Of a stretch of 39,501 bases of DNA, positions 22,936-39,501 are shown one piece after another; position 1 is the stretch's first letter, and every line of letters begins with the position of its first letter. The translations under genes and the position numbers were made by a program. The stretch comes from a virus. Under the pieces are notes generated by a model, which had not been told where the DNA came from, did not search any database, and saw only the letters and a list, made by a program, of their open reading frames with translations. Location of the stretch: IMG/VR virus record IMGVR_UViG_3300044825_002005, positions 1-39,501 of that record. One strand, given 5' to 3'.

Positions 22936-24021
22936 CTAAAGGACCTTGCTGATCGCTGCGATGAGGTTGTGATAGTGCTTTTTTGAGCCGAACCTATAGA
23001 ACAAGGTCGGCAGCCCTCTGAGGAGTATTCTTGATCGCGTAGTCCCATGTTGCGTGGCCATTTTCCAAGCGAGCACGAGCAGACCTGGCATCGTCAGATA
23101 TAGCTTTCTTGTGACGAAGAAGCTGTGTGGTTTCAGTAGTGCCATGGAGCGTTGCTCTTCGCTCATCGCGTTGAGGATGTGGAACTCTCGAACCACCTCG
23201 ACGGGCAACTGATCCAACACGGCCTCGACGCCGCCGAGGAGCGTCAACTCTCGCTCAAGCGTCTCGAACATCAGTGGCATGCTCTCGTTCGGCAGGTAGC
23301 GGTCCAGCTCTGCGACAGGCGCAGGCTCAATCTCTGCGACAGGCGCAGGCTCAATCTCTGCGACAGGCGCAGGTACAGGCGCGACAGTCGGCATGCGGAG
23401 GGGCTGATCCATCGTCACCACAGGCACATCATCAACAGGCATGAGCGCGAGCTGAGTCTCGGTGCGCGTGACTGAGATGTCGGGCAGGATCTCATAGACC
23501 TTGTTGAGCAGGAGTCCAAAGCGCTCAAAGCCTGTCACCTCTTGGGGGCGCGTGTCGCCTCGATGACCTTCGATGAGCACAGCGGGACAGTCGAGGAGCG
23601 CCAACTCATGCTCCTCGTGCGTCTTGGCGGTGAGCTTGGAGGTGTTGACGATGACATACCACCAGAGGGGCGCAGCGTGAGCGAGGCGCCCAAGCTGAGT
23701 CATGTTGCGGTCGCTGTTGGTGACCTCGTTGAACAAGGCGAGGTTGCCACGCGCCTGCTTGGTGGTGGTCTTGACCTCGATGAGGAGACCGTACTTGAAC
23801 GAGCCATCGAACGACACAGCGAGGTCAGCAGCGCCCCGCAGGTCTGAGAGCATGTCGGTCATCGTGACGAATGGGCGAGCGGCATCATCAGTGCGGATGA
23901 TGCGCAGGGCAGGGTCACAGATAATCGCGCCGAGGAGCTTTGAGACGATGAGCTGATGAGGGATCGTCTGGTCGATGGTGCGATGTGACTCGATGAGTCG
24001 CGTGGGTCGGTTCAAGGTCAT
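22936..24021 (-). CDS. PD-(D/E)XK nuclease-like protein in the packaging operon, 361 aa
   Basis: The ATG at 24021 overlaps the previous stop (ATGA), and the gene ends two bases before terL. Residues about 60-90 read DLRGAADLAVSFDG then YGLLIEVKTTT: an Asp (66) about 16 residues before Glu-Val-Lys (82-84), followed by Thr. This is the core of PD-(D/E)XK nucleases and Holliday-junction or restriction-like folds. Residues about 215-245 are a Pro/Ala/Glu repeat (APVAEIEP repeated) that links to a distinct helical C-terminal domain rich in Leu and basic residues. I do not recognise the family. A role in DNA processing during packaging or recombination is inferred from fold and position. Confidence 0.65.
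   Translation of the reverse strand: MTLNRPTRLIESHRTIDQTIPHQLIVSKLLGAIICDPALRIIRTDDAARPFVTMTDMLSDLRGAADLAVSFDGSFKYGLLIEVKTTTKQARGNLALFNEVTNSDRNMTQLGRLAHAAPLWWYVIVNTSKLTAKTHEEHELALLDCPAVLIEGHRGDTRPQEVTGFERFGLLLNKVYEILPDISVTRTETQLALMPVDDVPVVTMDQPLRMPTVAPVPAPVAEIEPAPVAEIEPAPVAELDRYLPNESMPLMFETLERELTLLGGVEAVLDQLPVEVVREFHILNAMSEEQRSMALLKPHSFFVTRKLYLTMPGLLVLAWKMATQHGTTRSRILLRGLPTLFYRFGSKKHYHNLIAAISKVL
23308..23373. repeat. 24-bp tandem repeat, about 2.75 copies
   Basis: Copies start at 23308, 23332 and 23356 (the last partial, 18 bases). They encode the eight-residue unit PAPVAEIE in the linker of the PD-(D/E)XK-like protein. The first two units are identical at the DNA level, suggesting recent expansion. 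Confidence 0.85.
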
Positions 24022-25974: not shown

Positions 25975-26046
25975 GTGGACTCCTTGTAGATGTGTTCACT
26001 GCTAACACGCGACAAGGCGTTTCACATTAGAGACGAGGTGTTTCAC
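25975..26046. promoter_or_regulatory. Divergent ssb/thyX control region with two GTTTCACAT repeats
   Basis: The 72-base gap separates two divergent genes and should hold promoters for both. GTTTCACAT occurs at 26019-26027 and 26040-26048, spaced 21 bases (two helical turns) on one face of the DNA, with the second copy covering the thyX start. They may bind a regulator. I see no convincing -35/-10 pair. Confidence 0.5.
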
Positions 26047-26730
26047 ATGGGCGACAGCGACAACGGCAGATTGATCAAGGTGGGTGGTGGAGCGGTGGAG
26101 CTCATCGATGTGATGGGCGATGCGCGCACGGTGGTGAACGCGGCGAGGGTCAGCATGGGAAAGCATGTGACCGAGATGAGTGAGGCTGATGCGCGCTTGA
26201 TTAGATACCTCTGGGAGCACGAGCACACATCGCCCTTCCGTCATGTGACGCTTCAGTTCCGCATCAAGGCGCCTGTGTTTGTCTTGCGTCAGTGGATGAA
26301 GCACCAGGTGGGGTGTGCATGGAACGAGATCAGCGGGCGCTATGTGACCTTCAACGATGAGGTGTGGTTGCCTCAGAGGTGGCGCGCGCAGTCGGCCAAG
26401 CTGAAGCAGGGGAGCGAGGGACCGCTCGATGATGTTGACGCGCTGTCCGCCTCACTCATCTATCAGGAGGCGGTCACTCAATCCCTCATGGCGTATCACC
26501 ACCTCCTGCGCCTGGGTGTGGCGAAGGAGCAGGCGCGCATGATCTTGCCTCTGTCGCTGATGAGTGAGTGCTACTGGAGCGCCTCGCTTCATGCGGTCAT
26601 CCACTTCCTCAAGCTGCGCCTCGACCTCCACGCCCAGGAGGAGATCCGCGACTTCGCGCGCGCTGTCAGGTCGTTGGTCGAGCAGGTGGAAGGCTTGGAG
26701 TATGTGTTGAGCGTGGCTCTAAAAGACTGA
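26047..26730 (+). CDS. thyX: Flavin-dependent thymidylate synthase, 227 aa
   Basis: It makes dTMP from dUMP using methylene-tetrahydrofolate, FAD and NADPH. Family features: an N-terminal VVNAARVSMGKH stretch, HTSPFRHVTLQFRIKAPVFV, RQWMKHQVGCAWNEISGRY, and a C-terminal arrangement with LGVAKEQARMILPLSL then ECYWSASLHAVIHFLKLRLD. The usual RHRxxSxNExSxRY motif appears here as KHQVGCAWNEISGRY (residues 85-99), with Lys-His-Gln in place of Arg-His-Arg. The ATG at 26047 gives the normal family start; the frame extends 19 codons further upstream. The dCMP deaminase downstream supplies its substrate. Confidence 0.93.
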   Translation: MGDSDNGRLIKVGGGAVELIDVMGDARTVVNAARVSMGKHVTEMSEADARLIRYLWEHEHTSPFRHVTLQFRIKAPVFVLRQWMKHQVGCAWNEISGRYVTFNDEVWLPQRWRAQSAKLKQGSEGPLDDVDALSASLIYQEAVTQSLMAYHHLLRLGVAKEQARMILPLSLMSECYWSASLHAVIHFLKLRLDLHAQEEIRDFARAVRSLVEQVEGLEYVLSVALKD

Positions 26731-26849
26731 GCCCCCACCTCAGCTACACGACCACGCAGACCCACACTGCGAGGACATGAAGGGAGTTCTGAGGTGAGGG
26801 CGCAGGGCTCTAGCTACACATCGAGACAACACTCGTGAGGAGGCATATC
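26731..26849 (+). other. Intergenic region with nested inverted repeats between thyX and the deaminase gene
   Basis: CACCTCAG (26736-26743) pairs with CTGAGGTG (26789-26796), enclosing a smaller hairpin CGCAG/CTGCG (26755-26759 with 26767-26771). AGCTACAC occurs twice, at about 26742 and 26812. It could be a structured 3' or 5' untranslated element. There is no T-run of an intrinsic terminator and no credible gene. Confidence 0.4.
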
Positions 26850-27311
26850 GTGAACGACAAGTGGAAAAAAATGTGGATGGACTTGGCTTGTGTCCTGTCG
26901 CAGGCGTCGAGCTGTCCTCGAGGGCGCGTCGGTGCGTTCATCATTGACCCTCGCAACAACCCTGTGAGCGCTGCCTACAATGGAGGACCACGAGGGGCCA
27001 TCGGCTCGCTGTGCGGGGGGGAGTTCTGCGAGCGGTCAGCCAGATGTATTGCATCGGGGACACAGACCGAGATCGGTTGTCACCATGCGGAGACAAACGC
27101 CATCGCGAACGCGGCGGCGCGAGGCATCGCGACTGAGGGCTGTGTGATGGTGACGAGCTGCTCCCCCTGCCTTGCGTGTGCGCGCCTCATCCACCACGCA
27201 GGGATCAAGGAGGTGGTGACGATAGTCGGGTACGATGAGCGCGGTGCAACCTACCTGCGGAATGTGGGCGTGGAGGTTAGCGTCACTCGTCTCTTTGAGC
27301 CCTCGCCTTGA
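26850..27311 (+). CDS. dCMP deaminase, 153 aa
   Basis: I start it at a GTG at 26850, six bases after AGGAGG; another GTG at 26835 lies upstream of the SD. The zinc-dependent deaminase motif is complete: HAE at residues 79-81 (CHHAETNAIANAAARG) and SPCLAC at 105-110, with Cys107 and Cys110 as zinc ligands. Extra cysteines around GSLCGGEFCERSARC match those in phage-type dCMP deaminases. It converts dCMP to dUMP, the substrate of ThyX encoded upstream. Its 3' end overlaps the convergent HTH gene by 29 bases. Confidence 0.9.
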   Translation: MNDKWKKMWMDLACVLSQASSCPRGRVGAFIIDPRNNPVSAAYNGGPRGAIGSLCGGEFCERSARCIASGTQTEIGCHHAETNAIANAAARGIATEGCVMVTSCSPCLACARLIHHAGIKEVVTIVGYDERGATYLRNVGVEVSVTRLFEPSP

Positions 27312-27747
27312 GGCGTCGGACTGCTCGCCCGATGGTGGTCTCATGCACCTTGAGCTCTTGGGCGATCTGTGCATATGTGAGCCCTTGAGCAGTCATCTCC
27401 TCGATGCGCTGAAGTTGTGCCTGCCTCTCCTCGGGTGTCGGCTGACAGAGCAGCTCAGGTGCCTTCTCACGAACGATGTCACGGAGGCGCTCTGGGTCAA
27501 CCTTGAGGCTTTGAGCGATGACCTTCCATGACTGCCCCTGCTCTCGCAGGTGGGTGACGACTGTGAGGTCGATGATGCCCGCCATCCTGCCACGGCGAGC
27601 GATGGCGCCATCGGTGAGGATGGCTTGGGTCTGACCGCAGATCCTCACCGCTCTGTCGAAGTCGCTGATGGGGTCTTGGTTGAGGAGGTACTGACGCTGA
27701 ACGATGCGGTCCACCAGTCGCTCAAGCGTTGTCTCATAGGTCATCAT
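27283..27747 (-). CDS. Helix-turn-helix protein with two HTH-like segments, about 154 aa
   Basis: Successive ATGs at 27756, 27747 and 27744 overlap the end of the helicase loader gene. I choose 27747 (TGATG). Two segments resemble HTH motifs: GQSWKVIAQSLKVDPERLRD in the middle and GLTYAQIAQELKVHETTIGR near the end, followed by a basic AVRRLKARAQ tail. Two such units suggest it binds DNA, perhaps as a regulator of early genes or a replication accessory protein. It is the last gene of the minus-strand replication operon. No named family is evident. Confidence 0.75.
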   Translation of the reverse strand: MMTYETTLERLVDRIVQRQYLLNQDPISDFDRAVRICGQTQAILTDGAIARRGRMAGIIDLTVVTHLREQGQSWKVIAQSLKVDPERLRDIVREKAPELLCQPTPEERQAQLQRIEEMTAQGLTYAQIAQELKVHETTIGRAVRRLKARAQRDE

Positions 27748-28628
27748 CAGCTCCATGCTGCCAAGCGGCGGTCGTGACCTGTCATGTGGATTGGGGCGCG
27801 CACCATCTCTGCGAGGCGTGAGGCGGCGGCTGGGCTGTCGAACATGCTGAGGACCTGCTTGGGCTCAAGGTTGGTGGTCGTGACGATGAGGAGCTTGCGC
27901 GCTCGCCATCGCTCGTACATGGCGCCCAACATCTCTCGGCTGCGCTCCTTCCACCATGCTGTCCACTGCGCTTGACCACCGAGGCCACCAAGCTCATCGA
28001 GGAGGAGGAGGTCAACGCCGTTGAGCCAGGTCTTGAAGGGGGAGTCGCTGTCTCCCTTCCAGCTGTCCTTCTCCTCATCGAAGAGGCGCGTCTGCGTGGT
28101 GTACCTGACCTTGAGCCCGACCTCGAGGGCGGCGAAGGCGAGAGCATAGAGGAGGGTGGTCTTGCCGTTGCCTGGTTGACCATGCAGGAGCGTGTTGGGC
28201 GCAGTCGTGGAGCGCTCACCGGTGAGCCATGTTTTAGCGCTTTGGATAGCCCTCTGTTGCGTTTCTGAGTCCCACTCATAGTCAGACAGCCGAGCGCCCT
28301 TCGCATCGAGCGGGAGCGAGGCGTGGCGAACGCGAGCGAATAGGCGGCGAGGGATCTCGCAGTGAGGGCAGGGGAGAGCCTCGGGAGGAGACATCGACAG
28401 CCCTCTGTCTCTCTGGATGAAGCCACCTGCACATCGCCCGCAGTCGGGGAGGCGCTTGATAGTGAGGTAGCCGTTGCTCTCGCTCCACCACTCATCGCCT
28501 AGAGCGGCGAGGGTCAGCTTGGAGTAGTCGGTGAACGGCTTGGGCTCGCGGAGGGCGGCGGTCGCCTTGAGCTCAAGGAGCAGGTTGATCTGCTCTTGGA
28601 TGGCTTCAGAGTTGATCAGTCGTTGCAT
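27747..28628 (-). CDS. DnaC-like AAA+ helicase loader, 293 aa
   Basis: The ATG at 28628 is preferred over a TTG at 28643. The protein has an N-terminal helical part, a CxxC...CxxC zinc site (CGRCAGG and CPHC), then an AAA+ core: Walker A in LLHGQPGNGKTTLLYALA, Walker B in GVDLLLLDELGG, and sensor-1-like KLLIVTTTNLEP. This is the DnaC/IstB-type architecture with a zinc finger. It loads the host replicative helicase, as no phage helicase is visible. It follows the initiator gene, as lambda P follows O. There is no clear Shine-Dalgarno; the leader instead carries CTCATTGGAC. Confidence 0.88.
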   Translation of the reverse strand: MQRLINSEAIQEQINLLLELKATAALREPKPFTDYSKLTLAALGDEWWSESNGYLTIKRLPDCGRCAGGFIQRDRGLSMSPPEALPCPHCEIPRRLFARVRHASLPLDAKGARLSDYEWDSETQQRAIQSAKTWLTGERSTTAPNTLLHGQPGNGKTTLLYALAFAALEVGLKVRYTTQTRLFDEEKDSWKGDSDSPFKTWLNGVDLLLLDELGGLGGQAQWTAWWKERSREMLGAMYERWRARKLLIVTTTNLEPKQVLSMFDSPAAASRLAEMVRAPIHMTGHDRRLAAWS

Positions 28629-28655
28629 GGTCAGTGAGTCCAATGAGGTCGAGTG

Positions 28656-29396
28656 TCAGTGCTCGTAGGTGAGCAGGAAGGCCTGAATGTCTTGTTGGTC
28701 GGGATAGATGAGAGCGTCTTGCAGTACATTCCTCAAGTGGAGGATCTGCTTCGGTGCATACCCCAACCCATCCAAGAGCTTGTAGTAGATGACCTGGTGA
28801 CTGTAGCGCTGCGCTTGAGGGATGGTGCGCCATCGAGGAGCGGCGGCGGTCTCCGCGCGTGGAGTCTCTGAAGGCGGTGGCGTCATCACCACAGGTCTCT
28901 CAACAGGTTTATCAACAGATTGATGAACAGGAGAGACAGAACTAACAACAGGTAATACAGATAAAGGTGGCTCACCATGAGCCATCGAGGTATCACCATG
29001 AGCTAGGGTAGGCTCACTATGAGCCATCGAGGTATCACCATGAGCTAGGGTAGGCTCACCATGAGCTAGGGTAGGCTCACTATGAGCTAGGGTAGGCTCA
29101 TCATGAGCCACCGCGAAATCATTGAGGTTTTCAACATTGACGATTGTGACGGCGCTCGCCTCTCCATAGCGCGTCGTGTGCCTCTCACGGCCGATGAGCT
29201 GCTTCTCAGTCAAGCTGGCGAGCGCTCTCTTGGTGCTCGCGGTTGAGACCTTGCTCATGCCCGAGAGCTGCTTGATGCTGACCTGTCCACGCCAGGTCTC
29301 CCAGTCGATCGAGTGAATGATGGCCATCAGCGTTAGCTTGTCAGCAGGGCTGAGGTCGAGGCCGAGGACTACCCTCAGCGCTTCTATCGCGCGCAT
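28656..29396 (-). CDS. Replication initiator-like winged HTH protein, 246 aa
   Basis: AGGAGG stands five bases before the ATG at 29396; a GTG at 29402 is too close to it. Residues 1-100 look like the winged helix of phage replication initiators: SPADKLTLMAIIHSIDWETW, VSIKQLSGMSKVSTASTKRA, LASLTEKQLIGRERHTTRYG. Residues about 100-140 are seven-residue repeats (EPTLAHG, DTSMAHG) encoded by iterons. The C-terminal part, after a Pro-rich linker, has a DnaD-like helical segment with YYKLLDGLGYAPKQILHLRN. It should bind its own iterons and recruit the loader encoded next. The arrangement mirrors lambda O and P. Confidence 0.8.
   Translation of the reverse strand: MRAIEALRVVLGLDLSPADKLTLMAIIHSIDWETWRGQVSIKQLSGMSKVSTASTKRALASLTEKQLIGRERHTTRYGEASAVTIVNVENLNDFAVAHDEPTLAHSEPTLAHGEPTLAHGDTSMAHSEPTLAHGDTSMAHGEPPLSVLPVVSSVSPVHQSVDKPVERPVVMTPPPSETPRAETAAAPRWRTIPQAQRYSHQVIYYKLLDGLGYAPKQILHLRNVLQDALIYPDQQDIQAFLLTYEH
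28969..29115. repeat. Seven 21-bp iterons, probable replication origin
   Basis: Units start at 28969, 28990, 29011, 29032, 29053, 29074 and 29095, each variants of GGCTCACCATGAGCTAGGGTA. Some hold the inverted arms GGCTCA...TGAGCC. On the initiator gene's downstream side, about 28890-28968, the sequence is unusually AT-rich for this genome and includes TTATCAACA, one base off a DnaA box. Tandem iterons inside an initiator gene beside an AT-rich stretch match the lambda origin. Confidence 0.75.
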
Positions 29397-29402
29397 GTGC
29401 AC

Positions 29403-29527
29403 CTCCTTTCGGTGTGTCGTCTTGATACCACATCCCCCCCTCAGTCCTCAACATTGTTTTGATGAGGCGTAAAATATCTCTTGACCTATCGTGAGAGAGG
29501 TTGTAGAACAGACGACACCGAAAGGAG
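29403..29527. repeat. Inverted leader repeat of the divergent early genes
   Basis: The leaders of the two divergent early transcripts are nearly the same sequence pointing outward: AGACGACACACCGAAAGGAG on the minus strand (29422-29403) and AGACGACACCGAAAGGAG on the plus strand (29510-29527). Each ends in the Shine-Dalgarno of its gene. This could be a shared operator or a conserved mRNA leader. Confidence 0.65.
29481..29509 (+). promoter_or_regulatory. Sigma70-type promoter for the plus-strand early genes
   Basis: TTGACC (29481-29486), a 17-base spacer and TAGAAC (29504-29509) form a good -35/-10 pair, 26 bases before the HTH gene start at 29535. The surrounding AT-rich stretch (GTAAAATATCTC) supports it. 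A weaker minus-strand candidate, TTGAGG with TATCAA 18 bases on, lies in the same gap and would serve the replication genes. Confidence 0.65.
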
Positions 29528-29534
29528 ACAAGAC

Positions 29535-29774
29535 ATGACCAAAGACGCCATCACTCAGCTCAAGATCAGGCTTGAGTTCTACGAGCGCAGAAAGCTCAAG
29601 CACCTCGCGGAGGCAGTCGGCATCTCACAGGCCCACCTCTCTCGCATCCTCAACAACCATGACAACCCTAGCCGCCCAGTGGCTCTCGCCCTCGCTGAGA
29701 AGGCGACGCAGTTCACAGGCATCACCTACACCGCAGACGACTTCATCCCCACCAAGGAGACCGCCCATGACTGA
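29535..29774 (+). CDS. Small Cro/repressor-like HTH protein, 79 aa
   Basis: The ATG at 29535 has AAGGAG seven bases upstream. The core LKHLAEAVGISQAHLSRILN is a typical lambda-repressor-type helix-turn-helix, followed by ALALAEKATQFTGITYTADD, the pattern of small Cro-like or XRE regulators. As first gene of the plus-strand early operon beside a divergent promoter, it is well placed to control both directions. No separate large repressor or integrase is seen, so a lysogenic switch cannot be claimed. It overlaps the next gene by eight bases. Confidence 0.8.
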   Translation: MTKDAITQLKIRLEFYERRKLKHLAEAVGISQAHLSRILNNHDNPSRPVALALAEKATQFTGITYTADDFIPTKETAHD

Positions 29775-32478: not shown

Positions 32479-32604
32479 CTAACAATCCGCTATCGCCGCG
32501 AAGATAATCATCAGGATCACCGCCACAAACACGGTCAACTCGTTGTCAGTCATGAGCGCGTACCACAGCAGACCGAGGGAAGCGATGAGTCCTAGATGAG
32601 GCAT
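32479..32604 (-). CDS. 41-residue membrane peptide overlapping the reductase gene
   Basis: The ATG at 32604 lies 13 bases inside the end of the reductase gene; upstream the frame is antisense-like. The product has two hydrophobic stretches (HLGLIASLGLLWYAL and LTVFVAVILMIIFAAIA) separated by a polar turn (MTDNE), a helical hairpin typical of small holin-like or antiholin-like peptides. AGGTGG lies close upstream of the start. Because the peptide is short, the call is moderate. Its last codons contain copy 2 of the 18-bp repeat. Confidence 0.5.
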   Translation of the reverse strand: MPHLGLIASLGLLWYALMTDNELTVFVAVILMIIFAAIADC

Positions 32605-34592
32605 GTTCCACCTGCACAGGCGGCATCGAGCGTGGGGTTCTCGATGGGACCCGCAACGCCTGAGAGGTTGACCTGCGACCAATCGATGGAGGCGAGGCGC
32701 TGCCACTCCTTCTCAACGGGCTCGCCCTCGATGACGGTCTGATAGGGCGCGTTGGCGTATGCGCTATCCCCAAAGTAACCGAGCAACGCAACGCCTCTGA
32801 GATGATCTCGATGCTCCCAGATGTAGTCTGAGACGCTCCTCCATTCATCTGGCTTTACTGTGCAAGTGTTGCTGACGTTGTGTGTCAGCCCCTCTACGCG
32901 AGAGTCACGCGAGCCCGGCGCGACCCAGTGACGATATGTGAGGGAGACGCGCTCGAGATGAGCGCGCGCGGAGTCTGTCTCGCGCGTGAGGGCGCCGTCT
33001 CGCGAAGCACAAGCGAAGCTGATGATCCCTGTGTGCTCGTCTAGCTCTTCACAGGCCCCCGGCACTTTCGCGCGCAGCTCATCCCAAACGGGATTCACAG
33101 TTGCGATCCTCATCCGCCGGATGAATCGGCGGGCGTGGGCTGTGTGGACGCCCGCAGAGATGGCGCCCGCCACTGTGGAAGTATTCCCGCTCGGCTTGAT
33201 CGTCGTCACGCGAGAGGCCCGATTGATTCCGATTCGCTCTGCTGTGCGGATGTTCTCGCTGATGGCGGCGCGGGCGCCCGCCTCGAGCGTCTCTGGATCG
33301 AAGAGGAGAACGGGATTCTCACACATCCCCGTTATCGATACGCCTAGCAGCGCCTCGCCCTCGATGATCTCTTGTGTGAGCTTCGTGAGATATCCGACAT
33401 CTGTATAAGACGCCTGGAGAGTCCCGATGAAGGAGGCCACGCGCGAAGCCTCCTCGAAGTGCGCGCGATCTCGCATGAGCGCGCCGTTGATTTCGGTTAA
33501 GTTACAGACCGCCCAGCCGCTCTCAAACTTATATCCTGCCTCGCTGAGTCGCTCGCGCTCTCTCATGATCGCCAGCGTCGGATGTGTGACGCGCTCTCCG
33601 CGCCGTGTGATGCGGTAAGGATAAAGCCCGATCTCGGCACATGGATTTGTTCCAATATCCTCACAGGGAAAGAACGCCACTCCAGGCTCTCCCCACTGCT
33701 TCGACATCTCCACAACGGCGTCAACGCTCGCGCGCGTCTCATGACCGTCTGTGATGATCCCCGCGCTGATGTTTGCATAAGCCCGTTGAGCATTGTTCCT
33801 CCACCACTCCCCGGTCTTTGAAGTGAGCATGAGCTGATCATCCTCATCAAAGATCGCGATAGAGGCGGATCGGCGCACTCCTCCCGAGAGAACGGCCTCG
33901 CTGAGGAACATCACGATATCAAAAGCATCGATCGAGCGAAGTCGCGAAAGACCGTCCTCGATACGCGAGCGCAGCAGATGATCAATCTTCTGGAGCGCCA
34001 CTCGCAGAGGCTCCGCGCCGGGCGCCCTCCCTCCTGAGGAGATGCGCGCTCCCTTCGGGCGAATGCGCGAGAAGTCATACTGAAGCTCAGCATAGTCGGC
34101 GTAGTATCCCCGATGAAGATATTGATCGATAAGGGCATTCGCGGCGTTCGCCCATCCTTCAATCGAGTCCTCCACGACATAGGCGCGCGGGCGCCTCTCC
34201 TTTAGTTCTCGGGGCGTGAGAAGTCGCGGGAGCTGCTTGATGTGCGTTTGACGCACAGAGAATCCCGTCCCGCAGCCCGACAGCAGGAGCCAAAAGGCCT
34301 CCGCGAAGAAGCGGCTCCGATCCACCGGAGAGAAGCTGCAGTTATAGATCCTCATGTTGTTTCTGCGGATCGCCGCGCCGCCGAACTGCATTGATCGTTG
34401 AGAAGGAAAAACTTCTTTGCGCCTCACGAAGTCAAACGCCGCGCGGATCTCGTCCTTGAGCCAGGGAAAGCGCCTCTCGTGCATCGCCTCAACGCGAGAC
34501 ACAGCCTCCTCCCATGTTTCACGCCCGTTCTCTGTCTCATGTGCATATTGCGCCGTGAACGCCACAGCGCCCAGAATCTCGTTCTGAGCCAT
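32592..34592 (-). CDS. Adenosylcobalamin-dependent class II ribonucleotide reductase, monomeric type, 666 aa
   Basis: It reduces ribonucleotides to deoxyribonucleotides. Key family motifs are present: NCSF (84-87), GCGTGFSV (106-113), SGGVRRSASIAIFD, NPCAEIGLYP (316-325; catalytic Cys318 and Glu320), WAVCNLTEING (Cys363), KPSGNTSTVAGAISAGVHTAH and the C-terminal redox pair CAGGTC (659, 664). The class II assignment rests on the absence of a radical-generating subunit gene and of the C-terminal tyrosines of class I, and on overall likeness to NrdJ-type monomers. No thioredoxin gene or cobalamin riboswitch is seen. It supplies dNTPs alongside ThyX and dCMP deaminase but lies in the late-direction cluster. 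Confidence 0.88.
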   Translation of the reverse strand: MAQNEILGAVAFTAQYAHETENGRETWEEAVSRVEAMHERRFPWLKDEIRAAFDFVRRKEVFPSQRSMQFGGAAIRRNNMRIYNCSFSPVDRSRFFAEAFWLLLSGCGTGFSVRQTHIKQLPRLLTPRELKERRPRAYVVEDSIEGWANAANALIDQYLHRGYYADYAELQYDFSRIRPKGARISSGGRAPGAEPLRVALQKIDHLLRSRIEDGLSRLRSIDAFDIVMFLSEAVLSGGVRRSASIAIFDEDDQLMLTSKTGEWWRNNAQRAYANISAGIITDGHETRASVDAVVEMSKQWGEPGVAFFPCEDIGTNPCAEIGLYPYRITRRGERVTHPTLAIMRERERLSEAGYKFESGWAVCNLTEINGALMRDRAHFEEASRVASFIGTLQASYTDVGYLTKLTQEIIEGEALLGVSITGMCENPVLLFDPETLEAGARAAISENIRTAERIGINRASRVTTIKPSGNTSTVAGAISAGVHTAHARRFIRRMRIATVNPVWDELRAKVPGACEELDEHTGIISFACASRDGALTRETDSARAHLERVSLTYRHWVAPGSRDSRVEGLTHNVSNTCTVKPDEWRSVSDYIWEHRDHLRGVALLGYFGDSAYANAPYQTVIEGEPVEKEWQRLASIDWSQVNLSGVAGPIENPTLDAACAGGTCLI

Positions 34593-36623: not shown

Positions 36624-39501
36624 TTAGATAATGAACCAGTTGGTCCCATCGCTGACCAGAGAGATCGCCGCGTACTGCACCGAGGATGCGAACGACGCGG
36701 ACCCATCAATCGTGCCACTGCTGGGAGTGATCGTCATGGTGAATGAGGACATATTCTTGATGACATACACATATCCTGCCCCAGGGCCTGACGCGCTAGG
36801 AATAGTGACCGTTGTGTTGGCACCTAGAGTCAGCAAGTACACCTCCTGAACGCCAGCTTGAGATGTGATCGTGTAGGTTCCGCTCGGGGAAGCACTAGTC
36901 ACATCAATCAGGTCCCCTGTCGTGGAGCCGTTGACCCATTGGCTCGTGGCGTTGTTGTACACAAGCGCCTGACCGTTGACAGGTGAGGTGATGACCACAT
37001 CAGTCAAGTCATCGAGCGCGGCAGATGTCGCAGGGAGATTGGTCAACTGCGAGCCATCGAGGGCAGGGAGCTTGACCGTTCCACCAACATCCTCAAGCAC
37101 CACCACATCGCCTGCGCCTGTGCCTGTGTCTACGAGAGCAGCTGTGCCGAGTCCGAGGTTGGTGCGCGCTGTGGCGACGTCTGCCAGGTCGCTCAGGTCG
37201 TTCGCACTGAGGAGCACATCAGCGGTCGCCGCCTTGAGCCCAAGCGCGGTGTCGATCCCTGCGAAGTGCGAGTCGAACTTGGCATCAGCGATGGTGTAGT
37301 TGGTCGGCGTGTAGGCGCTCGCGAAGTCACCTGCGTCACCGCCCTCGAGCTTGCCTGTCGTCGCGTTATAGACGATGGCCTGACCCGAGGTCGTAAGCCC
37401 CTTGGTGTTGATCTCGATGGAGCTGATGAAGTAGACGCCCCACGCTGGGAGGAGGTCTGCCGGTGCATAGTCGAAGCCCACGAGGTCGACAGTGCACTTG
37501 CTCTCAACGAATACCTCACCTGCAGTCTCACCACCGACCACATCTAGACCGCTCAAGAGGAAGGTGGTGTTGCTTCCACCGGTGGTCAGCTTGAGGCGAC
37601 CGAGCCCCCAGTTGGTGATGCGGATGATGTCGCCGCCGTTGGCGCTGTCAGGAACAGTCAAGACCTTCAGCGTGTCGGTGGCGTTGGCCATGATGTAGTG
37701 GACACCAGCGGTCAGCGTCAGAGGGTTCTGATCGGTGATGTACTGCAATGAGCTGATGAAGCTCGTTGGCACGTTGGTGAGGTTGGTGTAGTCGAGGCCT
37801 GTGACCTGGGAGGCATCGATCGCAGGGAGCGAGGGAGAGCCATCCACATCAACGATCTCAAGCACGTTGCCGATGGCTGACCCTGCGGTCTTGGTGGCGG
37901 CGCTCCCGAGTCCGAGGTTGGTGCGAGCTGTCGCCACGTCTGCGAGACCGCTGAGGTTGCCTGCCTTGAGGAGCGTGGCCGTGGTCAAGGGGCGCAGACC
38001 GACAGCGGTGTCGATACCTGCGACATGCTCAGTGACCGAGGCTCCTGCGGCGGTGTAGTTGACTGCGGTGTGGCTCGTGTCCACATCCTGCGCGGTCACG
38101 GTCACATCCCCTGCCACAGGCGCGATTCCGTTGACGCTGACCACGGTGGACCCACCGAGCGTACCAAGCACCGTGTCAATCCCACTCAGGTGCGAGTTCA
38201 GAGCGCTTGTGGCTGCGGTATAGTTGACCGGTGTGTTGGAGCTTGTGAGGTTCGCACCGTTGAGGGTGACTGACCCTGTCAGCGTATTGACCGACTGCAC
38301 AGGAGCCTGTGCAGAGGTGATGAAGTTCGCATCGTTGGTCAACTCGCTCGTGCTACCCGTGAACAAGAGCGCGTTGGGCAAGGTTGCGGTGTTCAAGAAG
38401 GTGCGGAACGAGCCATCAGCGAAGCCGCTCTGCCCTGCGATAGTCGCTGAACTCAGAGCGGTCAAGGGAACAGCAGAGCAGTTGGCGATGATCAGCTGTG
38501 AGGCTGCAGCGCTGTTGCTGATCGTGAGACCTGTGAGGTTGCACTGCACCAGGTAGATCGTCGCGGTCACATCTGCGCCGATGGTCAGAGTGCCTGTGAG
38601 GTCGCAGTCTCTGATCGTGATGAAGTTCGCTGTGCCGTTGGTGATCGTCAGGCCACCGAGCAGTTGACAGTCGATGAGCGCGTGGCGACCGAGAGTGCCG
38701 TTGATGGTGGTCAGCCCCTCGACTTGGAAGCCCTGCACCAGGTTGCGTGTGGAGGTTGCACCGCTGATGGTCAGCCCTCGCGACACAAGCTCGACGATCC
38801 CGAACGCACCTGTGCCACAGCCCTCGGCGCGCACCTTGATCAAGTCCTTGTCGGTGATGAGGACAGTGCTACCCCCATAAGACCCAGGAGAGACCCACAC
38901 GAGCTTGTTGGCGCTCGTCACCTCGTCGATACCTGCCTGCACATCAGACACGCCATCGTTGACGAAGAAGGCGTTGGAGTAGATGCGATTGCCGAGGGCG
39001 TCTGCTGAGTCAGTCAAGAGATCGCCCAAGACTGAGTCGATGCCTGCGACATGCTCAGTGACCGAGGCACCTGTGGCGGTGTAGTTGACTGCGGTGTGGT
39101 TGGTGTCGATGTCCTGCGCGGTCACGGTCACATCACCCACGACAGGCGCGATGCCGTTGACGGATGAGACAATGTCACCGCCAAGAGTGCCGAGGACTGT
39201 GTCGATCCCTGCGAGATGTGCCTCTACATCTGGAGTCGCTGCGGTGTAGTTGGAGGGAGACGCGGCCACACTCACGTCAGCCGCCTCGCCCGAGGTCGCG
39301 ACCGTTGCGAGCGAGGGAGCACCAGACAGGTCAGCGTATGCGCCCGAGGTCGCGACCGTGGCAAGAGTGGGAGTTCCCGACAGGTCAGCGTATGCGCCCG
39401 AGGTCGCGACCGTTGCGAGCGAGGGAGCACCAGACAGGTCAGCGTATGCGCCCGAGGTCGCGACCGTTGAGAGGTTGAGATCAGCGGCGGTCAGCGTGAC
39501 G
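36624..39501 (-). CDS. Tail fibre protein, C-terminal part (joined to the gene at 1-1824 on the circle)
   Basis: This frame enters from 39501 and stops at TAA 36624-36626. An internal GTG at 39275 could look like a start, but the frame is open upstream and in phase with the gene at 1-1824. It holds 18-residue repeats (ATVATSGAYADLSG), then modules of about 60 residues around VNGIAPVVGDVTVTAQD and AGIDTVLG. A stretch encoded near 38400-38900 has short, regularly spaced strands (TISG, TTING, TITNG, TGTLTIG) that look like a right-handed beta-helix. The last part (LVYNNATSQWVNG, then a small beta domain ending VSDGTNWFII) is the distal end. Three small proteins follow directly. A role in adsorption is inferred; I see no enzymatic motif I can assign. 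Confidence 0.85.
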   Translation of the reverse strand, partial: VTLTAADLNLSTVATSGAYADLSGAPSLATVATSGAYADLSGTPTLATVATSGAYADLSGAPSLATVATSGEAADVSVAASPSNYTAATPDVEAHLAGIDTVLGTLGGDIVSSVNGIAPVVGDVTVTAQDIDTNHTAVNYTATGASVTEHVAGIDSVLGDLLTDSADALGNRIYSNAFFVNDGVSDVQAGIDEVTSANKLVWVSPGSYGGSTVLITDKDLIKVRAEGCGTGAFGIVELVSRGLTISGATSTRNLVQGFQVEGLTTINGTLGRHALIDCQLLGGLTITNGTANFITIRDCDLTGTLTIGADVTATIYLVQCNLTGLTISNSAAASQLIIANCSAVPLTALSSATIAGQSGFADGSFRTFLNTATLPNALLFTGSTSELTNDANFITSAQAPVQSVNTLTGSVTLNGANLTSSNTPVNYTAATSALNSHLSGIDTVLGTLGGSTVVSVNGIAPVAGDVTVTAQDVDTSHTAVNYTAAGASVTEHVAGIDTAVGLRPLTTATLLKAGNLSGLADVATARTNLGLGSAATKTAGSAIGNVLEIVDVDGSPSLPAIDASQVTGLDYTNLTNVPTSFISSLQYITDQNPLTLTAGVHYIMANATDTLKVLTVPDSANGGDIIRITNWGLGRLKLTTGGSNTTFLLSGLDVVGGETAGEVFVESKCTVDLVGFDYAPADLLPAWGVYFISSIEINTKGLTTSGQAIVYNATTGKLEGGDAGDFASAYTPTNYTIADAKFDSHFAGIDTALGLKAATADVLLSANDLSDLADVATARTNLGLGTAALVDTGTGAGDVVVLEDVGGTVKLPALDGSQLTNLPATSAALDDLTDVVITSPVNGQALVYNNATSQWVNGSTTGDLIDVTSASPSGTYTITSQAGVQEVYLLTLGANTTVTIPSASGPGAGYVYVIKNMSSFTMTITPSSGTIDGSASFASSVQYAAISLVSDGTNWFII
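39327..39501. repeat. 54-bp coding repeats in the tail fibre gene
   Basis: Near-identical units begin at 39327, 39381 and 39435 (spacing 54 bases, 18 codons) and encode variants of ATVATSGAYADLSGAPSL. The last two units recur at 7 and 61 because of the terminal overlap. A related copy lies near 313. This is a known style of fibre shaft repeat and a likely place for recombination or assembly collapse. Confidence 0.8.

Follow-up and report, generated by a model that had tools for sequence, protein, structure and literature searches.

A putative lambda-type replication origin inside the initiator gene of an uncultivated phage, with iterons that vary together with the predicted DNA-binding domain

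Introduction

Replication origins located within the gene of the initiator have been described in a few model phages. The DNA considered here, a stretch of 39,501 nucleotides (IMG/VR virus record IMGVR_UViG_3300044825_002005, positions 1 to 39,501; hereafter, the window), carries an array of 21-bp repeats inside a gene, and the question is what such an array is for. The repeats might be iterons from which replication starts, operators, the by-product of a repeated peptide, or hairpins that act in RNA. We favor the first reading, with a probability of about 0.88: judged from sequence, the array would be a phage replication origin of the lambda O/ori/P kind, placed inside the gene of its own initiator. 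The features on which the argument is built are the following:

28656..29396, minus strand: putative initiator gene, 246 aa from ATG 29396 or 248 aa from GTG 29402
28963..29109, minus strand: iteron array, seven contiguous 21-bp units, each opened by a 15-bp dyad, GGCTCA-N3-TGAGCC
28891..28980: AT-rich stretch, presumed unwinding element, just downstream of the iterons in gene direction
28889..28930, minus strand: three 12-bp direct repeats of type CTGTTnAnnnAC, within the AT-rich stretch
29207..29245, minus strand: coding sequence of the recognition helix region (VSTASTKRALASL), residues 54-66 predicted helical
Initiator residues 1-99: winged-helix DNA-binding domain (AlphaFold model)
Initiator residues about 100-195: disordered linker, iteron-encoded (AlphaFold model)
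Initiator residues about 196-247: small helical C-terminal domain (AlphaFold model)
27747..28643, minus strand: gene for a DnaC-like helicase loader, next gene downstream of the initiator
29397..29535: divergent control region that separates the initiator gene from a Cro/CI-like HTH gene

The initiator gene and its product

The ORF tool places the start of the gene at GTG 29402, while the sequence-only reading of this DNA that preceded our analysis chose ATG 29396. The latter fits the AGGAGG ribosome-binding site better because GTG 29402 overlaps it. In the AlphaFold model, pLDDT values are 84-96 at residues 1-90 and below 41 at residues 101-190, and a short C-terminal end of three helices has moderate to low confidence. 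The unstructured middle (101-194) is the part encoded by the iterons and the AT-rich DNA.

Foldseek found generic winged-helix proteins and MarR-type regulators as the nearest folds, and Pfam gave a weak MarR match. Matches to PHROGs 391, 270 and 678 (replication initiation, O-like) were weak for the window protein (E 8e-4 to 0.018) and firmer for the initiators of four related loci, L004, L157, L158 and L161 (1e-6 to 1e-9). The window protein did not match Phage_rep_O (Pfam PF04492) at E values up to 0.1; the protein of locus L018, by contrast, matches that family at 3.8e-17. A search for relatives in named phages returned none for the initiator, nor for L027 and L034, and only distant ones for the loader.

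The iteron array

Seven contiguous 21-bp units coding for seven-residue repeats, with dyads in the DNA itself, had been described by the sequence-only reading, and both are present. In gene direction (29109 to 28963) the units encode AHDEPTL, AHSEPTL, AHGEPTL, AHGDTSM, AHSEPTL, AHGDTSM and AHGEPPL, and each is closed by a 6-bp linker, TACCCT or CTCGAT. Five of the dyads are good copies, with 5 or 6 of 6 pairs formed, and two, in units 4 and 6, are degenerate (3 of 6 pairs). When up to two mismatches are allowed, GGCTCA-N3-TGAGCC occurs 12 times in the window against 4.3 expected, a number reached by none of 100 shuffles; with zero or one mismatch, the five good array sites are the only matches and no second cluster appears. 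As a control, 80 other ORFs of at least 200 aa from the window and related loci were examined, and none contained a four-copy dyad array. A perfect 24-bp tandem repeat of 2.8 copies (23308-23373), found in gene 22936-24021, codes for PVAEIEPA repeats and has no dyad that we could see. Tandem repeats of 54 bp lie close to both window ends (608-749, 2.6 copies; 39287-39473, 3.5 copies).

All seven units share one codon frame, so the window alone cannot tell a peptide repeat from DNA iterons. The repeat could have been selected as a flexible or binding linker, the dyads being a by-product of the peptide AHxEP. Such a peptide is indeed prone to encode a palindrome: upon synonymous recoding with phage codon usage, the observed dyad count was reached in 71 of 5000 trials for the window and in 3 of 5000 for the array of the sister contig L004. 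The relatives described below make this explanation very improbable, as their dyads are read in two or three frames and encode unrelated peptides; the peptide changes completely from one allele to another while the dyad arrays persist, and the segment is predicted to be disordered.

The AT-rich flank and the neighboring genes

An AT-richer flank toward 28890 and a DnaC-like loader as the next gene had both been proposed, and both hold. Positions 28891-28980 have a GC content of 0.41, the lowest for any 90 bp of the window, whose mean is 0.61; for 60 bp the minimum is 0.35, at 28908-28967. Of the 12-bp direct repeat within this stretch, L004 holds 3.3 copies. In the 11 related loci inspected, AT-rich DNA always follows the array, strongly in eight and weakly in L157 and L163/L164. 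The loader matches PHROG_50 (DnaC-like helicase loader, E 3.9e-28) and IstB/AAA domain profiles, and it is conserved directly after the initiator in the relatives whose locus extends that far.

Two further lines of evidence were discarded. The near DnaA box that had been pointed out (TTATCAACA at 28909) is at chance level in the window (three one-mismatch matches, 3.25 expected) and is absent from L004. Cumulative GC skew has its maximum near 29 kb and was left unused because that maximum falls where the gene orientation diverges and its sign is opposite to that of a bidirectional origin.

The resemblance to MarR-type folds deserves consideration at this point. As a rule, winged-helix and MarR-like proteins act as repressors, and dyads repeated in an array could be an operator by which the protein regulates its own operon or copy number, with replication starting elsewhere. 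We deem this improbable: the array is placed about 290 bp into the gene, away from the promoter; the most AT-rich DNA of the window follows it; and a helicase loader comes next, as in lambda and SPP1. An extra regulatory role of the dyads, beside their putative role as an origin, may nevertheless exist.

Upstream, the divergent control region contains a 13-bp perfect inverted repeat, CTCCTTTCGGTGT / ACACCGAAAGGAG (29403-29415 and 29515-29527), which overlies the ribosome-binding sites of both divergent genes. This region seems to be exchanged separately, since locus L003 has an initiator gene about 99% identical to that of the window, yet its upstream sequence differs. Nucleotide-supply genes are found at 25990-27311 and 32592-34592, near SSB and RecT genes; they include ThyX (E 1.2e-47), a dCMP deaminase (5e-20) and a class II (B12-dependent) ribonucleotide reductase-like protein (1.8e-8).

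A natural swap of DNA-binding domain and iterons

On either side of a cassette of roughly 440 bp (window 29380-28941), which comprises the DNA-binding domain and the iteron array, the sister contig L004/L011 and the window share about 97% identity. Between L004 and the window, identity is 35% in the DNA-binding domain, 95% in the C-terminal half and 99% in the loader. The L004 dyad is TAGTCA-N3-TGACTA, still arranged in 21-bp units. At the three outer positions of the half-sites, identity is 75-81% among the units of each phage but 6% between the two phages; the inner TCA/TGA is 100% conserved. The 6-bp linkers keep the same order with 78% identity, which is above the agreement between linkers of a single array. 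A third state with the same linkers, GGCTCC-N3-GGAGCC, occurs in L157, where several units are degenerate. Because the half-sites have changed in nearly all copies and the linkers have been left unchanged, the three arrays look homologous.

Nine alleles and nine half-sites

For a sample selected without regard to the repeats, relatives were fetched through RecT, whose gene lies about 0.8 kb beyond the initiator gene. Besides the contig of L003, nine of ten contigs reach the initiator position, and in all nine hmmsearch detected an initiator of this family in the corresponding position. The dyad array is found at the same point of the protein, at about residues 92-169, and AT-rich DNA then follows. 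The search for iterons that persist when the encoded repeat changes, which had been suggested as a check, was thus clearly positive in L004 and in the RecT-fetched loci. The relevant observations are as follows:

(i). The nine alleles (window, L004 and the RecT-fetched relatives) have nine half-sites: GGCTCA, TAGTCA, GGCTCC, GGTGAC, AGTGTC, ACTGTC, TGACCAC, ACCCA and GTGCAA. With their spacers, the dyads of the RecT-fetched loci are GGCTCC-N3, GGTGAC-N5, AGTGTC-N6, ACTGTC-N6, TGACCAC-N5, ACCCA-N3 and GTGCAA-N3.

(ii). Copies of a single dyad fall in two or three different codon frames within L158, L159, L161, L162/L165 and L163/L164; mixed frames were also seen in L160, where they were judged by eye from the peptide. 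In L162 and L165, seven ACCCA-N3-TGGGT dyads occupy about residues 98-139 of the initiator, and because their spacing shifts from 15 to 22 bp along the array, all three frames are in use. Since dyads are read in more than one frame in six of the nine alleles, it is the DNA that is conserved and not the peptide, a pattern accounted for only by a function of the DNA itself.

(iii). The swap pattern recurs in L158/L159 (DNA-binding domain 41%, C-terminal part 79%) and in L163/L165 (22% and 50%). The reverse is found in L159/L160, where the DNA-binding domains are 72% identical, the C-terminal parts 48%, and the half-sites are alike.

(iv). The similarity of half-sites appears to be more closely correlated with that of the DNA-binding domain (Mantel r 0.57, p 0.0008) than with that of the C-terminal part (r 0.37, p 0.027). 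As the half-sites were defined by us and the set is small, we consider this result supportive rather than conclusive.

A simple residue code was also considered, in which K, T or V before R would specify GGCTCA, and Q before R would specify TAGTCA. It fits the first sets only: L128 (Q-R, with GTCGCA) and the K-R alleles L158 and L159 break the rule, and one residue position is therefore insufficient for a code.

Dyad arrays in a wider scan

IMG/VR was also scanned as plain DNA for two adjacent GGCTCA-N3-TGAGCC dyads. Eleven loci were found, and every one of them has its array within, or immediately next to, a gene for a winged-helix-like domain; the domain was assigned by Pfam (E<0.01) in nine of them and from sequence only in L026 and L028. 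More than one frame is used by the dyads of L008, L023, L024 and L027, and all three frames by the four dyads of L029, which are 22 bp apart. The distance from one dyad to the next tends to be close to an integral number of helical turns of about 11 bp (R 0.70-0.72; reached by none of 20,000 jittered sets). Two thirds of the spacings are multiples of three, as expected if DNA sites are squeezed into a reading frame.

In L013, L014 and L026, the array is outside the gene, just behind it. The TAGTCA dyads of L013 (8048-8152) and L014 (3184-3350) come just after a small gene of the winged-helix type and continue into ATAAATATATAA repeats; by its sequence, this is the same putative origin layout placed outside the coding sequence. 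Such loci bear on the possibility that the dyads act in RNA as hairpins, in attenuation or translational control. Each dyad could form a hairpin with a stem of 6 bp and a loop of 3 bases, and a terminator-like score was obtained for one of them. Nonetheless, the spacing follows the DNA helix, the half-sites change together with the DNA-binding domain, and the array is located behind the gene in these three loci, all of which makes RNA hairpins a very unlikely explanation.

Other dyads were found in different surroundings. Four TAGTCA-N3-TGACTA-like dyads, 22 bp apart, occur in L009 (3747-3828), L010 (8072-8153), L012, L016 and L019; AT-rich repeats follow, the array adjoins a large terminase-like gene, and it lies in no recognizable initiator gene. 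It is possibly the origin or a control site of another phage. In two Anaeromyxobacter loci (L031 1904-1944 and L036 29-69), GGCTCA-type dyads occur in pairs, 26 bp apart, immediately ahead of an ndk-like gene; these loci were rejected as initiators, and so was an Actinomadura match, a repeat within a gene. Among random HTH_36 genes from bacterial genomes arrays are rare, and most of these genes are presumably not phage initiators.

A model for the origin and its specificity

Our interpretation of the locus is an origin used by its own product, and from the arrangement described above we infer iteron binding, dimerization, DNA opening, helicase loading and initiation. Dimers of the winged-helix initiator would bind the 15-bp dyads within the initiator's own gene. 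As the sites are about two helical turns apart, bound initiators would stack on one face of the DNA, and the stack may open the adjoining AT-rich DNA. Recruitment of the DnaC-like loader, and through it loading of the host helicase, would presumably fall to the C-terminal domain, which is tied to the rest of the protein by the disordered, iteron-encoded linker. The DNA-binding domain and the iterons would form a matched specificity cassette, able to change independently of the C-terminal domain and the loader.

On this basis the locus can be read as a lambda-type origin that belongs to another initiator family and whose specificity cassette is exchangeable and diversifies fast. A stronger version, to which we give about even odds, is that the winged-helix domain and the array make up a hyper-diversifying cassette at a fixed locus, repeatedly exchanged against constant C-terminal and loader genes, with half-sites rewritten in nearly all copies and 6-bp linkers kept in the window, L157 and L004.

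One uncultivated phage family thus offers a natural mutational series in which place and architecture are the same, and the DNA word and the recognition helix differ. The series makes a joint change of specificity in initiator and origin testable by simple binding swaps. If the interpretation is correct, it would permit reading a residue-by-base recognition code for phage initiators, and the cassettes would define replication-compatibility types. It also provides a practical way of locating origins in phage contigs, by seeking winged-helix genes that contain a dyad array and precede a loader gene.

Comparison with known systems

As a positive control, the annotated origin of lambda was run through the same analysis. 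The record has four annotated iterons inside O, sites of 18 bp that lie 20-24 bp apart and in frames 0, 2, 2 and 1, followed by DNA of GC 0.30. Other O genes have dyads of their own, and O is likewise modular, as some matches span its N-terminal half only and others its C-terminal half only. The proposal that the window mirrors lambda O/ori/P with a different protein and iteron agrees with this control in layout, in module exchange and in the order of DNA-binding domain, iterons, AT-rich stretch, C-terminal part and loader, and replication would probably initiate at this site.

In lambda, O dimers bind near-perfect inverted repeats and the adjoining AT-rich DNA is opened (PMC5043065); Stx phages differ in iteron number (PMC7466680). 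Lambda O shares with the window an N-terminal DNA-binding domain and in-gene inverted-repeat iterons, and so do its lambdoid counterparts in P22, Stx phages and PhiR12. Lambda O/ori/P also has the AT-rich stretch after the iterons, on the side of the C-terminal codons, with a helicase-loading gene next. Mixed-frame iterons and an exchangeable N-terminal domain plus iterons are shared with the phage family described here (PMC5043065, PMC7466680). In contrast to lambda, the window initiator is unrecognized by Pfam Phage_rep_O, the loader is DnaC-like, and seven 21-bp units stand in frame; the site is a 15-bp dyad with a 3-bp spacer, whereas that of lambda is an imperfect inverted repeat of 18-19 bp.

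In the Bacillus phage SPP1 (gp38/oriL/gp39), repeats and an AT-rich stretch also lie inside the initiator gene and the loader gene comes next. SPP1 differs by an additional origin and by repeats that have been described as direct ones; the likeness considered here is one of layout (PMC6316719). The RepA_N plasmid initiator pSK41 Rep resembles the window protein in its winged-helix N-terminal domain, mid-gene repeats and separate C-terminal recruiting domain; it binds repeats in the center of its own gene, and the linker they encode is dispensable. It differs in belonging to a plasmid and in a C-terminal domain that contacts the primase DnaG, without a DnaC-like loader (PMC5703833). Set against these systems, the novelty lies in the initiator family, in the short dyad and most of all in a series of putative origins naturally re-specified at one locus.
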